Source of the DNA: Magnolia sinica | Taxonomy: Eukaryota; Streptophyta; Magnoliopsida; Magnoliales; Magnoliaceae | Direction: 5' to 3' | DNA length: 64,000 nucleotides | Assembly (NCBI RefSeq): GCF_029962835.1 | Contig: NC_080578.1 | Span: 102,527,759 to 102,591,758, forward strand | In this document: one piece after another, positions 7,136 through 48,699 of the stretch | Position numbering within the stretch: the stretch's first letter is position 1 | Layout: every line of letters starts with the position of its first letter | Position numbers and translations under genes: made by a program | The notes under the pieces: model-generated | The model's input: the letters and a program-made list of their open reading frames with translations, nothing else | The model's database searches: none | What the model was told of the DNA's origin: nothing

Positions 7136-9650
7136 CGGGATCAGGTTTAAGTTTGAGTTTTCAAGTTTAGATTTAGGTTTAGGTTAGGGAGTTGAGACTA
7201 GGATTAGGTGTAGGTCTAGGTTTAAGGATTTGAGAATACATTTAGGTTTTAGGTTTAGGTTTAGGTTATAGGGGTTTAGGTTTAGGTTTTAGGTTTAGGT
7301 TAAGGTTAGGTAATAGGTTATAAGTTTAGGTTCTAGGTTATAGGTTAAGGTTAGGTAATAGGTTATAAGTTTAGGTTATAGGTTAAGGTTTAGGTTTAGG
7401 TTAAGGTTTAGGTTTAGGTTATAGGTTATAGTATATAGGTTATAGCTTTAGGGAATTGAGAATAGGTTAAGGTTTAGGTCTAGGAAATCGGGTTCGGGTT
7501 TAGGTTTGGGTTTTCAAGTTTAGGTTTAAGTTTAGGTTAGGGAGTTGAGATTAGGATTAGGTGTATGTTTAGGTTTAAGGATTTGAGAATACATTTTGGT
7601 TTTACGTTTAGGTTTAGGTTTTAGGCTTAGGTTTAGGTTATAAGTGCAAGTTACAGGTTTAGGTTTAGGTTAGGCTATAGGTTAAGGTTTAGGGAATTGA
7701 GAATAGGTTAAGGTTTAGGTTTAGGAAACCGGGTTCGGGTTCGGGATCGGGTTTACGTTTGGGTTTTCAAGTTTAGGTTTGGGTTTAGGTTAGGGAGTTG
7801 AGATTAGGATTAGGTGTAGGTCTAGGTTTAGGGATTTGTTAATACATTTAGGTTTTAGGTTATAGGTTTAGGTTATAGGTTTAGGTTTAGGTTTTAGGTT
7901 TAGGTTAAAGTTAGGTTATAGGTTATAAGTTTAGGTTATAGGTTATAGGTTATAGGTTTAGGTTATAGGTTTTGGTTTAGGTTTAGGTTAAGGTTTAAGT
8001 TTAGGTTATAGGTTATAGTATATAGGTTATAGCTTTAGGGAATTGAGAATAGGTTAAGGTTTAGGTTTAGGAAATCAAGTTCGGGTTCGGGATCGGGTTT
8101 AGGTTTGGGTTTTCAAGTTTATGTTTAAATTTAGGTTAGGGAGTTGAGATTAGGATTAGGTGTTGGTTTAGGTTTAAGGATTTAAGAATAAATTTAGGTT
8201 TTAGGTTTAGGTTTACATTTTAGGCTTAGGTTTAGGTTATATGTTTAGGTTTAGGTTATAAGTGTAGGTTATAGGTTTAGGTTTAGATTTGGTTATAGGT
8301 TAAGGTCTAGGGAATTGAGAATAGGTTAAGGTTCAGGATTGGGTTTAGGTTTGGGTTTTCAAGTTTAGTTTTAGGTTTAGGTTAGGGAATTGAGATTAGG
8401 ATTAGGTGTAGGTTTAGGTTTAAGGATTTGATAATACATTTAGGTTTTAGGTTATCGGTTAAGGTTTAGGTTTTAGGTTTAGGTTAAGGTTAGGTTATAG
8501 GTTAGAAGTTTAGGTTATAGGTTATAGGTTAAGGTTTTAGGTCATAGGTTTTGGTTTAGGTTAAGGTTATAGGTTTAGGTTTTGGTTATAAGCTATAGGT
8601 TTAGGGAATTGAGAATAGGTTAAGGTTTAAGTTTAGGAAATTGAGTTCGGGTTCGGGATCGGGTTTAGGTTTAGGTTTTCAAGTTTAGGTTTAGGTTTAG
8701 GTTAGGGAGTTGAGATTAGGATTAGGTGTAAGTTTAGGTTTAGGGATTTGAGAATACATTTAGGTTTTAGGTTAGGTTTAGGTTTTAGGTTATAGGTATA
8801 GGTTTTGGAATTTGAGAATAGGTTTAGGTTAAGGTTGTAAGTATAAGTTATAGGTTTAGGTTTAGGTTATAAGTATAGGTTTTGGGATTTGAGAATAGGT
8901 TTAGGTTAAGGTTATAAGTATAGGTGTAGGTTATAGGTTAAGGTTTAGGTTTATGTTATAAGTATAGGTTAAGGTTGTAAGTATAGGTTATAGGTTTAGG
9001 TTTAGGTTATAAGTATAGCTTTTGGGATTTGATAATAGGTTTAGGTTAAGGTTATAAGTTTAGGTTAAGGTTGTAAGTATAGGTTATAGGTTTAGGTTTA
9101 GGTTATAAGTATAGGTTTTGGGATTTGAGAATAGGTTTAGATTAAGGTTATAAGTATAGGTTTAGGTTATAGGTTAAGGTTTGGGTTTATGTTATAAGTA
9201 TAGGTTATAGGTTTAGGTTTAAGTTATAAGTATAGCTTTTCGAATTTGAGAATAGGTTTAGGTTAAGCTTATAAGTTTAGGTTAAGGTTATAAGTATAAG
9301 TTTAGGTTATAGGTTAAGGTTAAGGTTTAGGTTTAGGTTATAAGTATTGATTTTGGGATTTGAGAATAGGTTTAGGTTAAGGTTATAAGTATAGGTTTAG
9401 GTTATAGGTTAAGGTTTAGGTTTAGGTTATAAGTATAGGTATTGGGATTTGAGAATAGGTTTAGGTTAATATTATAAGTTTAGGTTAAGTTTATAAGTAT
9501 ATGCTTAGGTTATAGGTTAAGGTTTAGGTTATACGTATAGCTTTTGGGATTTGAGAATAGATTTAGGTTTAGGTTATAGGTTATAAGTATAGGTAATTGA
9601 GAATAGGTTTAGGTTATAGGTTTAGGGTGTGGTTTTGGTTAAGGGTATGG
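7136..9650. repeat. Degenerate telomere-like array, about 2.5 kb
   Basis: The array is built from GGTTTAGG, GGTTATAGG and GGTTAAGG hexamer-like units, close to but not the plant telomere heptamer TTTAGGG. It has a higher-order structure. A marker block (TTAGGGAGTTGAGATTAGG) recurs at 7187, 7540, 7793, 8139, 8385 and 8705, with spacings of 353, 253, 346, 246 and 320. From about 8760 a second block (GGGATTTGAGAATAGGTTTA) repeats with TATAAGTATAGG between copies. G-richness is confined to this strand. It lies inside the probable CACTA element, so it is interstitial and not a chromosome end. Confidence 0.85.
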
Positions 9651-28741: not shown

Positions 28742-31194
28742 GGGCCTGTTTGGTTTTCCCAAATAACAGTATATGGGTTGCAAGGTGCAATGATAACATT
28801 TCATAAGCATTTGTTTTTTTAATGTTTTTGGCAGCAATTAAAGGGCGGCAGCAGATGGAAGGATTCGGCGGTATTACAGTCGCCAAATCCATCAGAAATG
28901 CAGGTACTCGAGGATTTCGTCTAACGCTTGGATTTAAGACTGAAATGGATATGGTGGCCCGTGGGACACTCCAAATAGGTAGATACTGACGCTCAAATTT
29001 AAGTCTGAAAGGCTTCTATTTTCGTCTTTATTCTACAAATCGTCTTCCCAGTGAGACGAGATGGATTCTTTCACCACTCAAGTATGAACTGCCTGTCTAC
29101 CTCCCTATTTGCAGAAATCCTTTCCAGTTGTTACATTGCTGCTTCCCCTCCATGCATGGTAATCTTCTTCCCTTTCAATTTATATGCTAACCATGCTTGT
29201 CTCTCTATTTAACAGACTGTCAAGGTTAAATCTTACTCGTAGACTGCTAAATACCATCTTCACGGCTATGTGTTCTGTCGGAAATAGGATAGTCCCTCAA
29301 AGGTACGAGTTCTGATTGCTCTACAGTTTCCAATTATAGTTTTTTTCCTACCTTTAGTGGGTCTTGTGATTATGTTTATTAGGATTAACTCTCGGAATCT
29401 GTCATGTGGGTTCATACCGTGAATTGGTTTTTCGTTGATATGTTGAGGAAGAAGCAAAGGTCTAGCCACGTCGAACTTTCAGTAAGCTTCTGTGAAGGAG
29501 ACGCTTTTGATGGGGTACATGGAAAGAAGTAGCTTCTTATAATATTGCCTTCTATGGACCTTTGGATATACCGCAAATGGGGTATTTTGCCAGAATGGGG
29601 GTGGTCGTTGGTCCTTTCTTTATTCGTTACCAATTGTGGACTATAATGACATTACGGATGTTTGGTCCTTGGCTAGCTTTAATCGTCCCACACGTCATGC
29701 GTAACATGCAGAGGATGCCGGCCGAACCAACTGTTGCCTTTATGTTCTTGATAGTTTAGCTAATTCCTCCGTCCACATCTTGCCATATTTTTTTAAAGAA
29801 CACAAATACCATGGACAGATGGATATGTTTAGAAGAAGAAAAAATAAATAGAATGGCTAAAAACATGTTGTCAATAAGAAGAGAAGAAGAAAAAGAAAAA
29901 AAAAAGAAGACAGATTGACAGTGTTTGTTTTTGTACTCCAACCTGGCTTTCCTGTATGTGACTATGTAACAAACTGTTATGCTATAATAGAGAATTTGTG
30001 TAGATGAAACCACACTTGTGGTTCGGCACTATTAATTCATGAGTAGCTAGTTGAATCTTCAGTTGGATAGTCCATACAAGAAAGGGTCATGTTTGCCAGG
30101 ATCCCTCCATTATGTGTTGATGTTTGTGATTTCATATATGGTCTATTTAGATGTTTTATGTTCACCTTAAAAAATTTGATTTTAGAGCAACTGGAAAATA
30201 ATAAGTATCATCTGATTTTTTTCATTTGCATTTAAACCAATTGCTTTCTTAAATTTTTAACTTGAAATTGTAGCCATAAATGAACTTGTTGGTTAGAAAT
30301 ATTGCTTGATCTGTGTGAGTTAGAGATATGTCTCATCGATAATGAGGCTTGCAATTTGGATGGTTTAACTAATACATTACTTGAAGATGTAAGTAAGATG
30401 AGTCATCCAAATTTTGAGCAATGGTGTAAACTAACATTGAACCCTGGGCTATTTTTTATATGATTTATGTCCACCTCCCTTCATTTTCCAATGATTGACT
30501 CTTTTGGTTTGATCCTACTCAAGTGTGGTGACCTGTTTAAGTGGCATTCGGCTCATGTGATTGACTATCGTGTAAGCCCCACTGAAAAATGTAAGCCACA
30601 CATCATGTGGGACTCACCTTGGATGTGGGACACTCATCATTAGGACCGATCTTTGATGTGGGTTGTCTATCTAATTGGTTTGCCTTTCATTGCTATTTAT
30701 GAGAAACATATAATGAGGCTTTGGCCATTTGGAGCTTGGATACAGTTTTCTATCTTCGTTCTCTTTTATAATATATAAAATCTTTGTGGTGCTATCACAC
30801 TGTAGCATGATCTGTTATAGAAATTGTCTTGTTCCCAGCTTCCATGTAATATTTCTTTGGTCATTGTATATAGGCAGAGACTCTCTTCCATATAGAACTG
30901 GCAAACTCATCCGTGATTGAGGTAAGTGTGATTGTTTACTATTGACTATTTATGTTTTCTCTCTCTCAACTTTATATTATTGTTCATATTTGCTTCCAAT
31001 CAGTGGAAATGAAAATGTGATCATCACAAGGGCTGATATGTTTTTATAATCTATTTATTATATACATGCAGTAGGTCTTGTAAATGTTAGTGTTGATTTT
31101 CTCTAACAAAGTGTTTTAGAGAATAGCCCAATGTTTTACCACTTTTACAATTTTATAAATTAAAAGTAGCTATCTGGGAAAACCAAACAGGCCC
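28742..31194. mobile_element. PIF/Harbinger element, non-autonomous, 2453 bp
   Basis: The left end GGGCCTGTTTGGTTTTCCCA and the right end read inward, GGGCCTGTTTGGTTTTCCCA, are identical for 20 bp. Both flanks carry TAA (28739-28741 and 31195-31197), the 3-bp target duplication of this superfamily. I find no transposase, Myb-like gene or other recognisable protein inside, so it would need transposase in trans. Its right subterminal stretch (CTTTTACAATTTTATAAATTAAAAG) resembles the left subterminal stretch of the coding element at 31373 (ACAGCTTTATAAATTAAAAG), so the latter is a plausible source of transposase. Confidence 0.85.
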
Positions 31195-32073
31195 TAACAG
31201 TAATCAGCCTATCTGGCCTACATTACTCTATTGACAGTCCAAGTGCCCTAGTGAATCTCAGATCAGCATTTGGTTGAAAGGCTGTCTGTAAGTGCCCCAA
31301 ATCAGAATTGGGTTGAATATGTAGTTGTGGTCAGTTTTGAAATTAACTGGGTGTTTGGGAAGACCTTAATAAGGGTCTGTTTGGTTTTACCAGATAACAG
31401 TAATTGGCCTGTAATGGGCAATTATGACTTTTCCACTCTTACAGCTTTATAAATTAAAAGTTAGATATACATATATATGTATATCCAACTGTTAATTCAT
31501 ACTGATACTACTTACTCAATATATGTGTACTCTAACAGTGAAATCAAATAATATTTTTTTTCGAATTTGATTTCTTATTATTTAACTGTTCTGATTGTAT
31601 GATCAGTTTTGAGATTTGAATATTGCACCCATTCCAGGGCTCCATTATCAATATGACTGTTTACTGTGTATAAAGGGCTGGATTAAACTTTGGTTGATTA
31701 AGATAGTTCACTGTATTAATTAGTTATACAATATAGTCCATCATTGCCATGCCTCAACTGTCATCCTGTCTGGATTAAACTTTCATTATGAAAATGCTGT
31801 ATCGAACTCGTGGCCCACCAATGGTCAGTCCCGTTAGATGAGTGATCCAGATGCAGAAACTGCATGCCAAGATGAACAGTATACATGATTACAAAGGTCA
31901 TGTGTAATGCTTGTTGGCAAATATCAATTTCTGGTTTGTGTATCCCAATTATGCAGCAGACTGAAAGTTTATAAAATATGTAAATTTGGGCCCATATAGA
32001 GTATTATATGTTTCTATTAAGGATAGGGCATGGAGTTCGATTGCATTGGACTGTAATCAGCATGATTTTGTTC

Positions 32074-32077
<4 letters not shown>

Positions 32078-32153
<76 letters not shown>
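32078..32153. repeat. (TA)n microsatellite
   Basis: About 38 uninterrupted TA units in the 5' leader of the Harbinger element. Confidence 0.97.
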
Positions 32154-32156
<3 letters not shown>

Positions 32157-32374
32157 AATTGATTTTTTGTAATATATTAAACCAAACCTAGCTTTGAGGG
32201 TCAAGACAATCCACATACTAGTTTGATGATCGTAAAAAAAATAAAAATAAAAAACAAAATAAAATAATAATAAAATAATAAAAAAACTCAAACAAAGTTG
32301 AATCCATGTGACCTTGTAAACAGACAACTTAAGCTATATGCACTGGTAATGAGCCCTAGTGGGGGTGGCTAACA

Positions 32375-33918
32375 ATGAATTGTTTTTTGAATATCAATTC
32401 ATTGTATACATTCGAACAAACAGAGTTACAAATGGAACGGGTGCTTGCTTTTAGACTACTGGATGCTGACTCTATTTCATACGTTTGTTGTACAAGTTCA
32501 TATCATAGCATAGAAGAACATGGATGGACGGAAGAGGAGATGGCTGCCTTTGCAGCTTCAATTGCAGCAGCAACTACAGTCATTGCGATTGGAAAATTTT
32601 ACAATAGTCTCTTTCTTAGGATACCCTGGAGAGTTGATGACTATGAAAGAAGTAAGATAATTAATGGGATAATTAGAGCCGGAGATAATGAGTGCCTGAC
32701 ACAACTCCGAATGAATAAGAATATTTTCTTTCACCTATGCTCGTTTCTCAGGGATAGGAATCTGCTACTGGATAGGAAACATGTAAATATGGAGGAACAA
32801 CTTGTCATGTTCCTTCATACAGTAGGGCATAATGTGCGAAATCGTGTCATTGGACATCGTTTTATATGATCAGGAGAAACCATAAGCAGATATTTTTCTA
32901 AAGCATTGGATGTAATTGTAGGACTATATCCTGAGTTTGTAAAACTCCCCGGTGTAGAAATAGCTACGAAGATTTTATCCAATCTCAATTGGAGCACGTA
33001 TTTTCAGGTATTGATCATGCTAATCACTATTATCCATGAATATCATTATTATAAGATTATGTCTCTTTTCACTTTTTTTCCTGATAAATCATTTTCAAAT
33101 TAGGATGTATTGGTGCAATTGATGGAACCCATATACCCGCTTATGTCACTACGATGGACAGTGTCACCTATCGTAACCAAAAATGGGTTCTATATCAAAA
33201 TGTAATGGCCGCCTGTACGTTTGATATGAAGTTCGTCTACTTGCTAGCCGGATGGGAAGGTTTGGCCTTCGACGCACGCGTCTTACAGAGTGAGTTGACA
33301 CATTCACACGATCATTTTACAATCCTAGAGGGTATTATAGTGTTCACCTATGTAATAGAAGTTATTTGTTAACTTAAATAATGTTAAACTGTATATTAAT
33401 CATTACTCATAATTAATTGTAGGTAAGTACTACGTAGTTGATGCTAATTATGCGCATTCGCTAGGATTCATGGCTCTGTATCGAAGCGTACGGTACCATC
33501 TCAATGAATACTGCACGGATCACAAGCCTTGTAACAAGAGAGAATTATTCAATTACAGACATGCTCAACTACAAAATGTTGTAGAGTGGATTTTTGGAGT
33601 ACTAAAAGCTCGATTTTTAATCCTCAAATCAGCTCCACCATATTTACTTTTAACACAACTCAAGATAGTTATCACATGTTGTGTTTTACACAACTTTATT
33701 TAAGGATTTGGGGGAGATGGTATTGTTGCAAATGAGGACCCATCAACAGATGTAGCGGATGGAATAGATCCATCTCCAGTTGAGTTAAGTTTTCAAGAAG
33801 ATGGACTGATGGTTATACGAATGCCACACAACGTGAGAGAGACGAATGGAACAAGTTTCGAGACAATATTGCTACTAGGATGTGGAATGATTACCATCCT
33901 GTGTGTCGTAGTTTGTAA
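32375..33918 (+). pseudogene. Harbinger transposase (DDE_Tnp_4 type), broken
   Basis: Exon 1 (to 33007) has a helical N-terminal region and the HARBI-type block TVGHNVRNRVIGHRF. Exon 2 (33104-33331) has IDGTHIPAY with the first catalytic Asp, QNVMAACTFDMKFVYLLAGWEG, and the second Asp in FDARVL. Exon 3 (33423-33918) has YYVVDANYAH, ELFNYRHAQL, the catalytic Glu in VEWIFGVLKARF and CCVLHNFI, ending ERDEWNKFRDNIATRMW. The introns use CAG|GTATTG and ATTAG|GA, then AGG|GTATTA and TGTAG|GT. Damage: TGA at 32867-32869 (Arg in the sister copy), a missing base at the start of exon 2, TAA at 33701-33703, and a frameshift near 33807. The enzyme would excise and reinsert DNA at TWA targets. Confidence 0.88.
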
Positions 33919-34191
33919 AAATGTCTCGATTTTTTGTTTGTTTGTACAAGGGAGAAAGGGATATTTTTACTTGTTTTCCATCCCTCACTTGTCTATAGTA
34001 AATATCTCCCTGTTGGTCAAATAATTATATTTTTTTTGTACTCCATGTCAACTAATATTTAGAATCTATGAATGTGTGGGCATGTATGTTGCAAAATATC
34101 AATGATTTTAAGTTGAAAACCTGGGATTTTACTGATTATTTTAAACTGTTTATTTGAATCTATGTAGATATCTGAAGATTCCAACGGAGAT

Positions 34192-35358
34192 ATGTCACCT
34201 AACAAGAGTAACACACAATCGATGCCTACAAAAGCATCCTGTCCATCGCCAAGTGTTACACCACGGAGGACCCCAAGGAAAATTAAACAGAAATCGACCG
34301 ATGAAAATGGGTCATCTGGTGGTGTAATGCGATGGACCGATGAGATGGACGACTATCTTATTAACACTCTTATAAAAGTTATTGCAAATGGCCATAAAAG
34401 TGCCAACAGATTTAAGAATAAGACATATAAGACAGTTGTCGATACTGTGAAGGGTGCCATAAGGATAGCGTTACAGGAGAAACATGTTGGGAATCACCTC
34501 CGTACACTGAAGAGGCTGTATTTTGAAGTGTGCGAGACTTTGAGTGCTTCTGATTTTGGATGGGATGACGATAAGAAGGTAGTCACTACTCTAGATGACG
34601 TATGGAAAGATTACATACGGGTGAGAATGAGATCGATCCAAGTTTTTAATACATTCATTAGAGTTGTTTATTTTCTTTATAATTAGTAAATTTGATATAC
34701 GCAAAAGTAACCTTGTATTGATACATTCATTCTTCTTGTCATAGTCACATCCTTACGCCCAACATGTACGAGGCAAAGCGGTGCGGAGGTATGATGACTT
34801 GACCGTGCTAGTGGACGTCGTTCAAGTATAGGCAACATTCCAGATTTTATGGCTTCTAGACGGTCTAGGGATACAAATATTTTGCCGAGAACGTCTACTG
34901 ATCAGAACGATGATATGCTCGTGCTATCGGGCGATGACATAGGAGACAGTGCGGAAGGGATACAATGGTCGTACCATAGTCGTGACAGTACCCACAGGGC
35001 CCACCGAAGTCCAAATGGAAATGAAAAAAATTCCATCAACACAGGCAGCACTTCCACGTCAAGGAAGAGAGCACGGATGAGTCGCCCCTGTGACGTAATT
35101 GGGCAAGGAATAAGCGAGGTTGTCGATGCAGTGAAGTCACTAGCGATAACAATTCACCAAGGAAAGGACATGGTCCGGATGTCACAGATTGTTCCTGCCT
35201 TGGAACAGATTGAAGGGCTGACAGGACATGAGATCCTTCACACTACAAAGATTGTATCGAAAGATGAGCACCAATTTGCCTCCTTCCTTTCACTCCCCGA
35301 GCACAGGAGGTTGGACTTTGTGTTGATGCTGCTTGCACCGGACCACTCCTCCGACTGA
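34192..35358 (+). pseudogene. Harbinger Myb/SANT-like protein
   Basis: The ATG at 34192 starts an N-terminal low-complexity segment with PRRTPRKIKQK. A Myb/SANT-like DNA-binding domain follows (RWTDEMDDYLINTLI, NRFKNKTYKTVVDTV, HLRTLKRLYFEVCETL, GFGWDDDKKVVT-type end with DVWKDYI), about residues 44-145. An intron (about 34630-34744, acceptor CATAG) leads to SHPYAQHVRGKAVRRYDDL. A frame change near 34800 joins the C-terminal part (MASRRS at 34849 to LAPDHSSD). The damage looks like a small deletion at a GACCGTGCTAGTGG-like repeat. In PIF/Harbinger elements this protein binds the transposon ends and helps import transposase. The sister gene is at 41915-43062. Confidence 0.82.
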
Positions 35359-35885
35359 GCTCAGTTGGACATACATGGACTTTGTTTGTTTCTTTGGATG
35401 TTTTTTTGGACATCTTCTTTTTGAACAATTACTTTTGGTTGTTTTGGATAACTGTATGTGACATTATGTGGATGAATGTGCCTGTATAGAACAGGTTATG
35501 GATGTGCCTATATAGAACGGGCTTTGGAAAGACCTTACTACTAGGATGGCAGTGTTGGACAAACTGTCATCCTGTTGATATTTTGACAATTGTTTGCATT
35601 TTTTTAAGACTTGGTGGCTATGGTTTGTTGATACGTAACTGTCTGTTACACTGCATAACCTGCTTTTATTTTTGGTTTACTCTATCGATGATCTTTATAA
35701 TAATTGTAAGTTTTTTGTGTAAACCCATCCGTCAAATTTTGCAGGTGTTCGTAGGGCCAGTTCAGGTATGTGAGAATAAGTACTTCAATACCTTATAATA
35801 TATTCCACTCAGGTGATATTTGAATTTGATCATCTCATTTTTTATATTCCACTCAGATATTTTTGCTTTATTTGATAATGTGAAG

Positions 35886-36311
35886 ATGGTGAAAAAGGTA
35901 TATGTTGTGTTCAACGGTCGCCACCCTGGATTATATTATGACTGGGAGGAGTGTCGGGTGCAAGTGGAGGGATTTTCACGGGCACGTTTTCGTGGATACA
36001 AGTCGGCAGTCGAGGCATATCTTGAATGGTCTGAATGGTCCGAGAAAATGGATCTTCCAGCTGTCCCACGGGACGAGATGGTAGATGACCAGGAGAGTGT
36101 TAGATCGCAGCATAGAGAACACTACAACGCCATCTGCATGAGTCATCCTATTGGACGGACCTTGGCAATGACCTCTTCAGCCCCATATGACTTGGGCACA
36201 AAGAGACAGGGAGGTGTTACAGACGAGGGAGACAGTGGGGCATTGGTCAGATTCATCTTTGGAATCTTGGTATTGGTTCTTCTCATTCAACTTATATCAA
36301 CGCTGAAGTAA
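35886..36311 (+). CDS. RNase H1-type hybrid-binding-domain protein with C-terminal TM helix
   Basis: The ATG at 35886 (open frame upstream to 35820) gives 141 residues. Residues 1-47 match the N-terminal hybrid-binding domain of RNase H1, the same fold as the caulimovirus viroplasmin (Cauli_VI) domain: VYVVFNGRHPGLY, WEEC, VQVEGF and ARFRGYKSAVEA keep the Tyr, Gly, Pro-Gly, Trp, Cys and Gly-Phe landmarks. In eukaryotic RNase H1 this domain grips RNA:DNA hybrids. Residues 50-115 are polar with no known domain and no RNase H catalytic core follows. The last ~22 residues (VRFIFGILVLVLLIQLI) look like a membrane anchor. There is no internal stop. It lies after the Myb-like gene on the same strand. 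A diverged homologue occupies the same position in the element at 40255-48576. Function is unknown. Confidence 0.8.
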   Translation: MVKKVYVVFNGRHPGLYYDWEECRVQVEGFSRARFRGYKSAVEAYLEWSEWSEKMDLPAVPRDEMVDDQESVRSQHREHYNAICMSHPIGRTLAMTSSAPYDLGTKRQGGVTDEGDSGALVRFIFGILVLVLLIQLISTLK

Positions 36312-36599
36312 TGTGCACAGGTTGTGTTTGTATGGACTTTATTTGTGGTTGTTTTGGATAACTTCATGTTTATTTTTCTTGATGGACAGTGGTTACTATT
36401 TTGATTTTTTTTTCTTGACAATGAATATTTAGGTTTCTAGACTTCGATTGTAGTGTATCTTTTTCATCCATTACCCTTCAAATCCGAATTTGAAGGGACC
36501 CATGTACCCACATTTATTCTGCCAGTATGCTTGCCTACTAGATTCAGTTGTTGCAATGTCAACCTCGAGACACGTCCGTTTGAAACAAGTGAACCAAAT
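36312..36599. other. Harbinger 3' non-coding segment
   Basis: AT-rich sequence between the third gene and the 85-bp repeats, with no gene. A phrase GGTTGTTTTGGATAACT at about 36346 also follows the Myb-like gene at 35437, suggesting duplicated gene-trailer sequence. Confidence 0.45.
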
Positions 36600-36856
36600 A
36601 ATGCTGATATACATTTTGGTGCATTTCAATAGATGTTATGAACCACACAATATGTCACAAAGATCATCATGTGGTCCACCACGTAGTGCTGATATACGTT
36701 TTGGTGCATTTCGATATATGTTGTGGACCACACAATCTATCACAAAGTTCATCATGTGGTCCACCCAAAAGTGCTGATATACGTTTTGGTGCATTTCGAT
36801 ATATGTTGTGGACCACACAATCTATCACAAAGATCATCATGTGGTCCACCACAGTG
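36600..36856. repeat. 85-bp tandem repeat, three copies
   Basis: GCTGATATAC starts at 36603, 36688 and 36773, exactly 85 bp apart. The two later units contain GTGGACCACA and, about 26 bp on, TGTGGTCCAC, a 10-bp inverted pair able to form a hairpin. The first unit has a degenerate left arm (ATGAACCACA). The array lies about 370 bp inside the right TIR of the Harbinger element and could serve as subterminal binding sites. Confidence 0.88.
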
Positions 36857-37436
36857 CTGGATATCAAATTTTACCATATGTGAAGATTGGGTCCCATGAC
36901 CAGTTGTCCGGATGTTGCCCAAATTGCTGAAAGGAGAATCACATATATTCGGTACTACTATAAAAATCAAACAACTGATTATAGTTGTTGTAGAGCTGAG
37001 ATGGTGGACACTATAAGAGCAAAAAAGCAATGATGTGACTACTACATTGTCTATCCAAACACGTTCCTATTGAATTTTCATCTATTACACTCATAACATA
37101 CTAAAAAACAAGCATGGGAAAGCAACATACAGGTATTCAAACAATCATTGCTAATACATGTAAAGACGTAATCATGTTGTCTTTACACCCAACTACCGTG
37201 GTAATTGGAAAACCAAATAGGCCCTAAGGCATACGGGAGAATGATCTGGTGCATGATCCAAAGATAGAAACTGATATCTCCACGCGCGCGACATTCGCTT
37301 AATTGAGTAAATCGTACCGAGATTGACGGCCATGATCTGTTCGTCTCACAGGTATAAATACCAGAGAAACTCATTGCAACAGGGACGCAATATCTCGCAC
37401 CTCTCATCTACTCTACACAACTTAGACCCAGTTTCC

Positions 37437-39841: not shown

Positions 39842-39844
39842 TTA

Positions 39845-40251
39845 GGGCCCGTTTGGCCGGGTGGATCGGAAGGGATTGAATGGAATTAGGGTGGATGGCA
39901 TGGATTTCAAGGTAATGATGGTGTTGTCAGTGGATTGTCTTAAGATCCATGGGATTGCTATATGGAGTATGTTTGGCACGCCCGGCCAATCCCGGGATTA
40001 AACCTTCCCATCCCTTCCAATCTCTCGAACCCAACACGTTCCAGGCATATTTGAACGGATTAGGGTGGATTGGACGGGATTTAAAGGCAATGATGGTGTT
40101 GTCAGTGGATTGTCTTGAGATCCATGGGATTGCTATATCCGCGGATCAGGTCACCCCATCTATTTGGCATGTCCGGCCAATCCCGGGATTTAACTTCCAA
40201 TCCCTTCCAGTACCATCCAATCCCTCCCAATCCGCCCGGCCAAACGGGCCC
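39845..40251. mobile_element. Tourist-like MITE, 407 bp
   Basis: The left GGGCCCGTTTGGCCGGGTGG and the inward right end GGGCCCGTTTGGCCGGGCGG form a strong TIR. Both flanks carry TTA (39842-39844, 40252-40254). The interior holds two copies of AATGATGGTGTTGTCAGTGG (about 39914 and 40090) within a ~175-bp internal duplication. The same phrase in weaker form (TTTAAGGTAATGATGGCAGA) lies just inside the left end of the large element at 40255, so the MITE looks like a relative of it. Confidence 0.88.
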
Positions 40252-40399
40252 TTAGGGCATGTTTGGCTGGACCGATCCCATGGGATTAGGAGGTATGGGA
40301 TCGGTTTTAAGGTAATGATGGCAGAGTTAGTGGATGGTCGGGCATCCATTGGGATTTTCATATCCCAATACTAAAAGATCTGCCTGTTTGGATTGCAAC

Positions 40400-41029: not shown

Positions 41030-41431
41030 TTATAATTTAATCATAATATACAATGTGAAAAAAACAACCATTACGCCAATCAAGAGTTCCAATAATTTAT
41101 CTGCGGCTGAAGGGGGGAGATCATCAGTAGACGTGGGCCTCAACATAGTGGCCCGGGATGTCCAATGGATAGACAGCATAGCCGAATGATGGACATCAAC
41201 TGCGTCCACTGATCTTCCCACTTCTCCCGAGCGAGCGTCACATCCATGTGTCAGTGGTGCAGTTGCCAGACCGAAAAAACTGTCCTAGTATGCCGTTGCA
41301 TCTCTCCAATTCTTAAGCGCTCAATGGCGGCTCCCACTGTATCCCTCAACCTCGACTCGTGCATCATCCCATGTAAGATAAATACCTGGTTGACAACCAA
41401 CCAAGACAACATAGTATTTTTCCTTCGCCAT
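41030..41431 (-). pseudogene. Hybrid-binding-domain protein with TM helix, second copy
   Basis: The minus-strand ATG at 41431 opens a 133-codon frame ending at 41030. Codons 1-36 read as the RNase H1/viroplasmin-type N-terminal domain: KYYVVLVGCQPGIY, then TWDDARVEVEGYSGSR. Two in-frame stops interrupt it, TGA at codon 37 (41321-41323) and TAG at codon 49. Both are one C-to-T step from Arg or Gln codons. After these the same frame continues without shift to a hydrophobic C-terminus (LLELLIGVMVVFFTLYIMI), matching the C-terminal helix of the 35886 gene. Sequence identity to that gene is low outside the domain, but order and length agree. TTTTGCAG directly before the ATG could be a splice acceptor. 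Confidence 0.75.
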
Positions 41432-41914: not shown

Positions 41915-43062
41915 TCAAACAGAACCACCACCGTCATTACCCTTCAAATCGTCCAGAGTTTTCTTAAGCCAATCAACGCAACGATCCGGCCGTAGGGCAA
42001 CAAAAAAGGAGGTAAGCTTCTCGTCTTTATTCAAGAGCTGACCAACCTCAATAAATTCAGCATTGGTTAGCCCCTGAACCTCTTCCAATATGTCTAAGAC
42101 ACATCACGTTCGATTGACATCCTTTCCAACAGAGAATTTATGCATTGCCTCTGCGACACTCGTGAGAGATAAGCCTACGACATCACATGGTCGAGCAGGT
42201 CGCATCCTTTTTGTTGTTGCACTTCCACCATGACTACTATCGAAATCGGTTCTACGAGTGGGTGTGTCCTGAAACGGCCTATTTTTCCTTGTTTGAATGT
42301 CCATTGACCGGCCATATATGTCAGGTGATTCATCGAGGTTTTCCTTAGATAGGTCCACGGTAGCATCTGTATCATCGTCCAGCTCTCTCCACGAATCATT
42401 CAGGTCTCTATAAACACGAGACGCGGATGCCGCAATGTTCTGACTTCCTTGCGCATATCTTCCTGTCGCCTGGTGTGACCCAACAATCACCGATAAATCA
42501 TCCACCCGTTCAATTCGCTTGCCACGCAACCTCTTAGCTCGCAGATGAGACTATACATATAATAATTTTGAATATCAATAAATGTCAGTTGAAATTAAAA
42601 TTTGTATACAACCAAAACAACAATATAGGTTACCTTTAAATATTCCTCCCAAACCTCGTCTGGGGCCGTCACCACCATGCGCTCACTGTCCCAACCGAAA
42701 CCGCTCGCAGCCAGCATGTCCTTTATATCACCGTACTCCCTCTTGTGATACCTCAATCTATTTTGAACATTTTGTCAGGTAAGAAGTATTTGTGTACGTC
42801 TATGGACCGCATCGGCGGCCGCTTGATATGCTTCTCGTTTGAAGTCATTATCTCCCTTTCTACCTAGCGCAATTTACTCAATCAAGGTGTCAAACAAAAC
42901 TTGATCCATAGTTCCAGTCCATTTGATCTTCGTAGCGCGATAGGATGGCTCTGCCAGAGATATTACGGACTTCTCACGTGGTGAGGTACGTGTCGGTAGA
43001 ACCAGGCTACGCAACGGCGATTGCATTGGAGTAGGAGTAGATCTACTCAAATTGTCAGACAT
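41915..43062 (-). pseudogene. Harbinger Myb/SANT-like protein, second copy
   Basis: The ATG at 43062 (MSDNLSRS) is followed by a Ser/Pro-rich start and the Myb/SANT-like domain (KIKWTGTMDQVLFDTLIE, then NRLRYHKREYG, GFGWDSERMVVTAPDEVWEEYLK). An intron (about 42632-42550) leads to SHLRAKRLRGKRIERVDDL and a tail with DVVGLSLTSVAEAMHKF and LNKDEKLTSFFVALRPD. Stops at 42874-42876, near 42776 and at 42104-42106 break the frame. The family match to 34192-35358 includes the SH..A..(V/L)RGK start of exon 2 and the RPCDV(I/V)G block near the end. It would bind element ends. Confidence 0.78.
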
Positions 43063-43313
43063 ATCACCTATGTGCAAATGGGAAGGCAGTTACGCAAAGA
43101 GAATAATGCGGAATACAGTATGTGTCAATTATAAGGTTTAGCCGAATGAAGGAAAATGTATAGGAATAAACAGTTGTTGATGTATGTAGCAAAATTTGTG
43201 AGCTTCGGTGTACAAAGTGCAAAAAATCCTACTTCGAAATTGTACAAAAATCATTAAGCATCTATTACTTTAGTTATGCAGTATGTCATGATTATCACAA
43301 TAACCAAGTAGGA

Positions 43314-44719
43314 TTATCGAATCCTACTATTGTTTTGAGTGTCTTCCCACATGCGCTCCACGATCCTATCACGAGTTCTGATCCAATCATCCTTCGCTCG
43401 TTAAGTGACATGGACTAGCCATTGCCTTTCATCAATTGTCGATACCTCATTTGGGGTAGGTATAGTCTCGTCATCACCCACTAGTACACCTATGTCACAC
43501 AAGTCTTGGTCTGATCCATCTTCACTCCATATGAAATTATGTGGCACACAACAAGCAACGACAATTTTAACTTATGTATCAAAGAGGTATTGCATAGCCA
43601 TCTTTAAAATTGGAAATCTTCCCTTCATCACACCGAAACAGCGCTCAATTGCATTTCGTAATTGCGCATGTCGATAGTTAAACAATTCTTTCACATTCAT
43701 GGGTGATCTCCCGCTACGATATTCCTGTAGATGGTATCGAACTCCACGATAAGGGGCTATGAACCCTGGTGAATGAGCGTAACCTACGTCTACGACAAAG
43801 TACTTTCCGACACAATAATAGGAATGATTCTTTCAGTCTTGCACTGGGACAAATTATATGCACCAATCAACATTTAAATGATACTGAATATTATTTACCG
43901 TGGGGCACAATAAGTGGATCGTCTGATCGTGTCAGGGCATTGTGTAGGACCCGTGCATCCAATGCTAAACCTTCCCATCTAGCTAACACATACAATATTG
44001 ACATATCAAAGGAACAAGCAGCAAGTACATTCTATGACAAGATACCCTTTCAGTTATGAAAGCTTGCATGTTTTGATACTGCTATGTGTGTCGAAATATG
44101 TGTCCCATCGATCACACCCACGCAATCCTATAGTGGCAGAGGTCTTGAGCCTATAGGATTAGTATCATATTATATCTTTATTTAAGTGTAGATTAATAAA
44201 TGATCAGTTGGTCTAAAATGATACCTGAAAATAACTGGACCAACGTGTATTTTCCTGAATCTCAATCGGCGTTTGTGCGCCTGCCTGCTTAACATATTCA
44301 GGGTACAGGGAAATAATTGCATCTAAAACTCGGTGAAAGTGACGACTTATAGTTTCACCAGATCGACAAAATCTGTGTCCTATCACACGATTTCGGATGT
44401 TGTGGCCAACCGTATGCAAGAAGTACACAAGTTGTTCCTCCAAACTAACGTTACGTGTATCGCGTAGGGTCATATTATCACGCACTACTTCACATAGATG
44501 GAAAAATGCGTCCTGCTTCATCCTAAGTTGGGTAATGTAATCCCTATCATTACTCCGAATAATTGAATTAATAAATTCAGTACGCTCATCATCCCCTATC
44601 CGAGCCGGTTCTTTAAACATATAGTGCCGACAGTATTCCCCAATAGCTACTACACATGCAGCTGTTGTAAGAATGATAATGAAATCAGCCATCTCTTCCT
44701 CATCTTCATCATCCATCAC
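43314..44719 (-). pseudogene. Harbinger transposase, second copy
   Basis: Exon 1 (44719-44225, MMDDEDEEEMADF) has TVGHNIRNRVIGHRFCRSGE and ends SSYFQ before a GT donor. Exon 2 (44127-43899) has DCVGVIDGTHI with the first catalytic Asp, NVLAACSFDMSILYVLARWEG, and LDARVL with the second Asp. Exon 3 (from about 43810) has YFVVDVGYAHSPGFIAPY, ELFNYRHAQLRN, IERCFGVMKGRF with the catalytic Glu, and ends RIVEHMWEDTQNNSRIR. In-frame stops lie after FHN (44057), after ILS (44036), after LFDT (43572) and after HVT (43408). Each is one C-to-T change from a Gln or Arg codon. The exon 3 acceptor appears to have lost its AG. Confidence 0.85.
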
Positions 44720-48240: not shown

Positions 48241-48699
48241 CCGACGTCATACCATCGATTGATCATCTCTGATAGTACGGTCCTGATGGTGGGAAGGGAT
48301 GAAGCAGGTGCGACGTCGTTTCCTCTCTCCGTACTTGCGTAAATCCATCTGTAGACGGCAGGGCGAAATCCCGCGGGATTTGTTGCTGGGCTCGAGGAGA
48401 GGAGGAGGTGGGATGGGATATCTCGTCCATATCCAACCATACACAATGACCGATCCCGGGGATAGGTTTGAAATGCAGATCCCGTGCGAAAGCAAACGCA
48501 CGCGTGGGACGGGCACACGGGATCGCGTGATCCCATCCATCGTAAGCCGTGCTACTGCGTCTACCCAAACACGCCCTTAGTGATTTAGACGCTTGATGTT
48601 AATTCCCGCATTGCTTACTGTCTTCTTATTCATATTTTAAAATTTTAAAAACTATCCTTGTTAAAAATCATACATGTTCTAAGAGAGAGTGAGTCCTTT

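Follow-up and report, generated by a model that had tools for sequence, protein, structure and literature searches.

We describe here a third gene, ORF3, of a PIF/Harbinger transposon lineage in Magnolia sinica, which in diverged copies lies on the same strand as and 3' of the transposase and Myb/SANT-like genes, and which is predicted to encode an RNase H1-type hybrid-binding domain linked to a membrane-type C-terminal tail. We regard the assignment of ORF3 as a gene of these elements as nearly certain, and on the basis of the domain and tail predictions we consider it rather probable that its protein binds RNA:DNA hybrids or double-stranded RNA (dsRNA) and is anchored in a membrane. To the whole reading, in which this third Harbinger gene with its hybrid-binding domain and membrane tail likely captures hybrids or dsRNA away from silencing, we assign a probability of about 0.6, a figure weighted to the third-gene part of the statement. 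The original prediction of such a gene from a single copy is supported, with the binding and membrane roles remaining predictions. It had stressed that ORF3 is open despite a decayed transposase; the frame is open indeed, but the openness of a single frame is weak evidence for gene status and our case rests on family-wide data.

Results

The window (the whole stretch of 64,000 nucleotides that was analysed) contains a PIF/Harbinger element of 5852 bp on the plus strand (element 1, 31373..37224) that is delimited by the inverted repeats GGGTCTGTTTGGTTTTAC and GGAAAACCAAATAGGCCC and flanked by TAA target duplications at 31370-31372 and 37225-37227. Its plus-strand gene order is transposase, Myb/SANT-like gene and then ORF3. 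First, the transposase remnant (DDE_Tnp_4, 32527..33948, start approximate) consists of pieces separated by predicted introns, and a piece of it matches PF13359 at 43.3 bits (Pfam cut-off 24.8). As had been predicted, it is interrupted by two in-frame stops (32867-32869 and 33701-33703); at least one frameshift is present as well, near 33815, but the second one that had been claimed was not confirmed. Second, the Myb/SANT-like gene (34192..35358, two predicted exons) matches PF12776 at 64.9 bits (Pfam cut-off 23.6) and carries one frameshift in exon 2, near 34820, which the original prediction lacked. Third, ORF3 (35886..36311) is intact, encodes 141 residues from an ATG at 35886 to a stop ending at 36311, and is directly preceded by a T-rich tract ending in AG (35856..35885, plus strand) that constitutes a predicted 3' splice site. 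The predicted placement of an uninterrupted 141-codon frame inside an element bounded by terminal repeats and target duplications, downstream of a transposase and a Myb/SANT-like gene on the same strand, was thereby confirmed.

Several further features of this region were recorded. The C-terminal part of the Myb protein (35215-35337) resembles PF23950 MLLE_2 below the cut-off (E=1e-4) and might be a protein-protein contact domain. Three tandem copies with a spacing of 85 bp occupy 36593-36864 at the 3' end of element 1, and a 2.45-kb non-autonomous Harbinger-type element (28742-31194), with TAA duplications and inverted repeats that match in their first 20 bp, adjoins element 1.

Pfam searches with the ORF3 product (P0001) returned PF01693 (Cauli_VI) as the sole family, at 51.8 bits (E=9.7e-14, residues 4-44) against a cut-off of 21, a significant match of the kind that the original prediction of an N-terminal RNase H1-type domain had been staked on. 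The RNase H catalytic domain PF00075 was absent from Pfam searches of both P0001 and the element 2 product P0003, NCBIfam contributed only a ribonuclease H model whose score fell far short of the cut-off, and PHROGs gave no match for P0001 and weak matches only for P0003. Profile matches in the PDB were to RNase H1 proteins or their N-terminal domains. An AlphaFold model built with 15 sequences placed the domain and a tail helix (117-140) at a pLDDT of ~90, with a linker (69-114) below 50 and a whole-model pTM of 0.43, while a model built with two sequences (mean pLDDT 48) was set aside. In Foldseek the PDB structure ranked first was that of the human hybrid-binding domain with RNA/DNA, superposed at an rmsd of 1.1 (E=3.5e-4; TM by target, 0.87), and the N-terminal part of ORF3 is accordingly predicted by this model to have the fold of a hybrid-binding domain, a domain that also binds dsRNA, more weakly. 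Among 15 aligned ORF3 rows, chosen as intact, the positions of human Tyr29 and Trp43 are invariant (15/15) and that of Phe58 is kept in 14; Tyr29 and Phe58 are residues that, like W43 and KK59/60, we take to be nucleic-acid contacts of human RNase H1. The Lys59/Lys60 pair is not conserved, position 59 being R in 10 of the 15 rows and position 60 being G in 13. According to the available part of the source, hybrid binding by human RNase H1 is compromised by W43A and by KK59/60AA (PMC10639055).

At the other end of the protein, the last ~24 residues were modelled as a confident hydrophobic helix, in keeping with the membrane-like C-terminal stretch noticed originally, for which a membrane role is predicted. 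The hydropathy of the tail peaks at 2.76 (19-residue window), a value reached ahead of 2 of the 1449 window stop codons that are preceded by at least 26 sense codons, ORF3 included. Hydropathy and model agree on one hydrophobic helix within ~30 residues of the C terminus of P0001 and on no other, a predicted layout that would fit a tail-anchored membrane protein.

A tblastn search of the window with the ORF3 product revealed a second copy on the minus strand (41422-41327, 50% identity over 32 residues, E=1e-6). It belongs to a second element (element 2, minus strand, 44716 to about 41030) that was absent from the original prediction and in which, ~4 kb from element 1, the three genes recur in unchanged order: a transposase remnant (43284..44716) with a piece matching PF13359 at 41.2 bits (cut-off 24.8), a Myb/SANT-like gene remnant (41915..43062) matching PF12776 at 41.6 bits (cut-off 23.6) and an ORF3 of 133 codons plus stop (41030..41431), all on the minus strand. 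This ORF3 keeps a single frame throughout with two in-frame stops; read through these stops it covers the full PF01693 model (43.4 bits) and ends in a hydrophobic stretch. Tails as hydrophobic as this one precede 6 of the 1449 window stop codons, both ORF3 tails included, and 2 of the 130 window frames that are open for at least 80 codons. We rejected a chance frame on account of the PF01693 match and this second element. Amino-acid identity between elements 1 and 2 is 56% for the transposase, 38% for Myb and 50% for ORF3, and the corresponding pN/pS ratios, for which only aligned stretches were counted and synonymous sites are at or near saturation, are 0.33, 0.50 and 0.47 (bootstrap 0.29-0.73 over 32 codons for ORF3). 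No convincing inverted-repeat pair was found in the window for the ends of element 2; a loose pair near 48579 and 40266, read by eye in a MITE-rich stretch, was rejected. On the 3' side of element 2 we noted by eye a short MITE-like stretch (about 39844-40257) with the ends GGGCCCGTTTGGCCGGG and TAA flanks.

We then searched the Magnolia sinica genome (1.84 Gb) for relatives. P0001 matched at least 151 places (best 150 of 1054 candidates scored), and P0005, a Logan protein whose matches include element 2, matched 150 further places (best 150 of 1157 candidates) with no overlap with the 150 of P0001, so that at least 300 ORF3 relatives reside in the genome. In the first list, at least 68 of the 150 copies have a same-strand transposase 0-8 kb upstream among the best 150 transposase places (median 2157 bp), opposite-strand upstream transposases were found for 0 of the 150 among the matches listed, and 200 shuffles gave a mean of 0.035 linked copies and a maximum of 1. 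Over both lists, at least 118 of the 300 copies have a same-strand transposase 0-8 kb upstream, typically at ~2.1 kb and in 102 of these 118 at 1.8-2.6 kb, whereas 100 shuffles averaged 0.17 and never exceeded 2. Among the matches listed, an opposite-strand transposase upstream was found for 0 of the 300 copies, a transposase downstream for 2, and no upstream transposase for 182. Seen from the other side, at least 77 of 150 transposases in the first list and at least 55 of 150 in the second have an ORF3, and 73 and 95, respectively, have none among the matches listed. In the first transposase list the share with an ORF3 drops with rank, from 22 of the 25 nearest to 7 of the 25 farthest. Unpaired copies may reflect incomplete listing or fragmentation, and two-gene relatives may exist in the genome. 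Linkage is thus far above chance, and orientation is the same whenever a listed transposase lies upstream. Homologues that usually occur without a Harbinger transposase and stand here by chance had been named at the outset as the finding that would speak against a third gene, and the linkage among the matches listed did not bear this out. The shuffles also led us to reject a chance insertion beside Harbinger elements.

The domain itself is strongly amplified in this genome: of 1159 PF01693 candidates the best 150 were scored, and all of these exceed the cut-off. Many of these places have open frames that are short and might represent exons in a clade with splicing. A cross-tabulation found 36 of 150 PF01693 places linked to a transposase, a partial and possibly biased figure on which we place no weight, as it drew on all 150 first-list transposase places and on only 22 others, which were chosen by eye and for the most part came out of the second list.

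The same linkage bears on a viral origin of ORF3, as an endogenous remnant of caulimovirus P6/TAV next to or inside the element. ORF3 shares its Pfam family with P6/TAV, and the viral model in BFVD that matches it best is TAV of Rose yellow vein virus, followed by several other plant-virus TAVs and also by TAV-named proteins of a phage and of giant viruses. However, the match is limited to a domain of ~45 residues, the spacing between ORF3 and a Harbinger transposase is nearly constant in many copies, and the neighbours that we found are Harbinger genes, which together render a viral remnant extremely improbable.

To the window elements we added 20 fetched loci of 9.9 kb, which are the best-ranking relatives and not a random sample. 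These elements have the DDE_Tnp_4 transposase and Myb/SANT-like gene of Harbinger elements, along with short inverted repeats and TAA duplications in element 1, but depart from the rule of exactly two protein-coding genes: 15 of the 20 loci, like both window elements, have all three genes, in order, and 19 of the 20 have at least one other Harbinger gene beside ORF3. The remainder comprise loci with Myb and ORF3 only (L011, L015 and L025), one with transposase and ORF3 only (L017) and one in which ORF3 stands alone with neither neighbour gene (L020). The sense strand of L025 has two tandem ORF3 copies (7301-7729 and 7791-8177) in one element. Under strict pairing, which demanded identical duplications, Harbinger-type ends were recovered for 4 of the 21 loci, a set that counts the window element. 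A scan with an 18-bp consensus from the window beside TAA or TTA located the two ends of 9 of the 21; the 3-bp duplications are identical in 7 of these and differ in 2 (L009 and L019), and some left ends may lie outside the fetched stretch. The same scan of mononucleotide shuffles of 10 loci gave no match. Over 17 elements, the distance of ORF3 correlates with that of the transposase at r=0.95 (0.75 without element 2) and with that of Myb at 0.97 (0.87 without element 2), and 0 of 2000 permutations were as high, with or without element 2.

We next asked how ORF3 evolves, an analysis of dN/dS across copies having been proposed with the original prediction. Another 20 ORF3 stretches were fetched, most of them chosen for having no stop in the search table, and 20 of the 40 fetched loci have full-length open frames (139-144 codons), all 20 with a tail hydropathy of 2.06-3.18. 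A codon model was fitted to 20 intact frames, namely the window copy and 19 of the 40 loci, the other 21 being broken, truncated or near duplicate. Over the whole frame omega is 0.52; by part, it is 0.26 (residues 1-48), 0.83 (linker) and 0.67 (tail). Twice the difference in log likelihood versus an omega of 1 is ~73 overall, ~95 for the domain, ~3 for the linker and ~5 for the tail. All these estimates come from copies that were selected because they are open. Purifying selection acts on the hybrid-binding part of intact copies, the linker is nearly free of constraint and does not depart from an omega of 1, and the tail departs slightly. In neutral simulations from the window tail, 9, 31, 0, 3 and 2 of 500 runs reached the hydropathy of five diverged copies; the hydrophobicity of the tail is maintained while its sequence changes.

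These data also weigh on the idea that ORF3 is a captured host gene fragment, a functionless passenger of the kind known from Helitrons and Pack elements. Capture of a PF01693 gene has been published for a fungal Helitron (PMC4289320, in its available part) and lends the idea some plausibility. It is nonetheless very unlikely here, in view of several diverged clades with matching order and spacing, distances of ORF3 that track the transposase and a domain under purifying selection in intact copies. Host capture in one copy only was rejected by the several clades.

To look beyond the linked copies, we fetched three high-scoring PF01693 places without a listed transposase (L049, L050 and L051). 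L051 has all three genes, L049 has no transposase, and L050 matches the part of L051 that follows its Myb gene. Where L051 has its Harbinger genes, upstream of the ORF3 copy, L050 has a hAT-like transposase frame that was read by eye (1-2200). All three loci have a domain exon followed by a second frame with a hydrophobic tail (hydropathy 2.17, 2.3 and 1.69), and a GT...AG intron between the domain and tail exons was read by eye in L050 and L051.

Splicing is suggested for the main family as well. Of 45 copies, 30 have an AG that abuts the start position; it closes a T-rich tract and usually reads TG(C/T)AG, and in L049-L051 a TTGCAG ends four bases upstream of the ATG. Because this predicted splice acceptor lies just before the start codon, ORF3 is probably a last exon. 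It could then be an alternative last exon of the Myb gene, in which case a fusion of the Myb DNA-binding domain, the hybrid-binding domain and the tail would tether subterminal DNA to a membrane. The position of the AG would suit such a fusion, as would the Myb exon-1 donor and ORF3 both being in phase 0 in elements 1 and 2, where they join in frame. In addition, the Magnolia sinica gene models P0008 and P0022 have both Pfam domains (Myb/SANT-like and PF01693), and the gene model P0004 has the last part of Myb exon 1 at its start. On the other hand, splicing Myb exon 1 onto ORF3 in L051 would put the domain out of frame, and that locus retains the ATG. Of the 45 copies, 39 have a start ATG, among them decayed copies and two in which it is shifted by one base in register; a pure fusion would have no need of it. 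We rate this fusion reading as rather unlikely. In our preferred view a spliced message is translated starting at the ATG of ORF3 itself, and the Myb fusion may occur as an isoform.

Searching 5.8 billion proteins with a profile gave 34 matches, including Magnolia entries and many RNase HI-type proteins. Since these matches include P0018, a 144-residue Logan protein close to a Magnolia copy, and P0024, a 101-residue Logan protein with the domain and a hydrophobic tail (2.39), the domain-plus-tail plan may extend beyond the Magnolia sinica genome. Three olive proteins (P0021, P0023 and P0027) have the same domain, in two copies in P0021, and no hydrophobic tail. Viral contigs scanned with P0001 contained no relative.

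Discussion

Comparison with known systems sets ORF3 apart in each case by one or more features. The RNase H1 N-terminal domain matches it in sequence and fold, but ORF3 has a membrane-type tail and no catalytic domain was found. Caulimovirus P6/TAV is a larger protein that, to our knowledge, has the domain without an RNase H catalytic domain, and P6 is a silencing suppressor; unlike ORF3, it is viral and comes without Harbinger genes. It is a plant-side protein with the same domain as ORF3, and in the available part of the source TAV, as a protein with the hybrid-binding domain, lowers DNA/RNA hybrids in human cells (PMC7102451). The capE gene of the Pleurotus Helitron helpo1.3 resembles ORF3 as a PF01693 gene inside a DNA transposon, but it is described in the accessible text as captured cargo of a fungal rolling-circle element, whereas ORF3 belongs to a gene set whose distances track the transposase (PMC4289320). 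Plant PIF/Harbinger elements of the Pong/PIF type are like ours in having a DDE_Tnp_4 transposase, a Myb/SANT-like protein, short inverted repeats and TAA/TTA duplications. The available text of PMC9710019 gives two genes for all PIF elements known in plants and animals, and ours differ by a co-inherited third. Likewise ISL2EU, a Harbinger-like group of animals in the same superfamily, has two ORFs as far as the accessible part of PMC9179366 goes, and both sources match the original statement that PIF/Harbinger elements generally have two genes. Among the matches listed from the open-access literature, in the parts available, we found no report of a Harbinger third gene like ORF3; the only PF01693 gene in a transposon was that of the fungal Helitron (PMC4289320), and PMC7998251, from its available part, concerns other elements.

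What might such a protein do? One possibility is that ORF3 acts in transposition by binding R-loops at the element or its target and by tethering the excised element or the transposase complex to the nuclear envelope. The domain and tail predictions would be compatible with this role, as would the co-inheritance of ORF3 with transposase and Myb and the binding of a subterminal motif by the Myb-like protein of zebrafish Harbinger (PMC9710019, available part). However, the same text has two proteins, transposase and the Myb-like protein, as what the rice and zebrafish elements need (PMC9710019); a third protein is therefore not needed for catalysis in general, and we consider a role in transposition unlikely.

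On the basis of the domain, the parallels with P6/TAV and the membrane tail, we propose instead that ORF3 captures the element's hybrids or dsRNA and thereby relieves silencing. In this scheme, ORF3 would be translated from its own ATG on a spliced mRNA, its hybrid-binding domain would hold the element's own RNA:DNA hybrids or dsRNA, and its C-terminal helix, separated from the domain by the variable linker, would anchor the protein in a membrane, so that the bound hybrids or dsRNA would be kept there, away from the silencing machinery. The anti-silencing role is drawn by analogy with caulimovirus P6/TAV and is tentative. Equally speculative is the fuller version, in which a membrane-anchored reader of hybrids or dsRNA counters silencing and splicing may also fuse it to the Myb DNA-binding domain.

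If this proposal is true, a class II element would possess a tool otherwise known from pararetroviruses. A conserved third gene implies that part of PIF/Harbinger biology is undescribed, and ORF3 suggests that membranes are connected with DNA transposition or with silencing. Finally, ORF3 may account for some orphan gene models that plant annotations label 'ribonuclease H1 N-terminal domain'.
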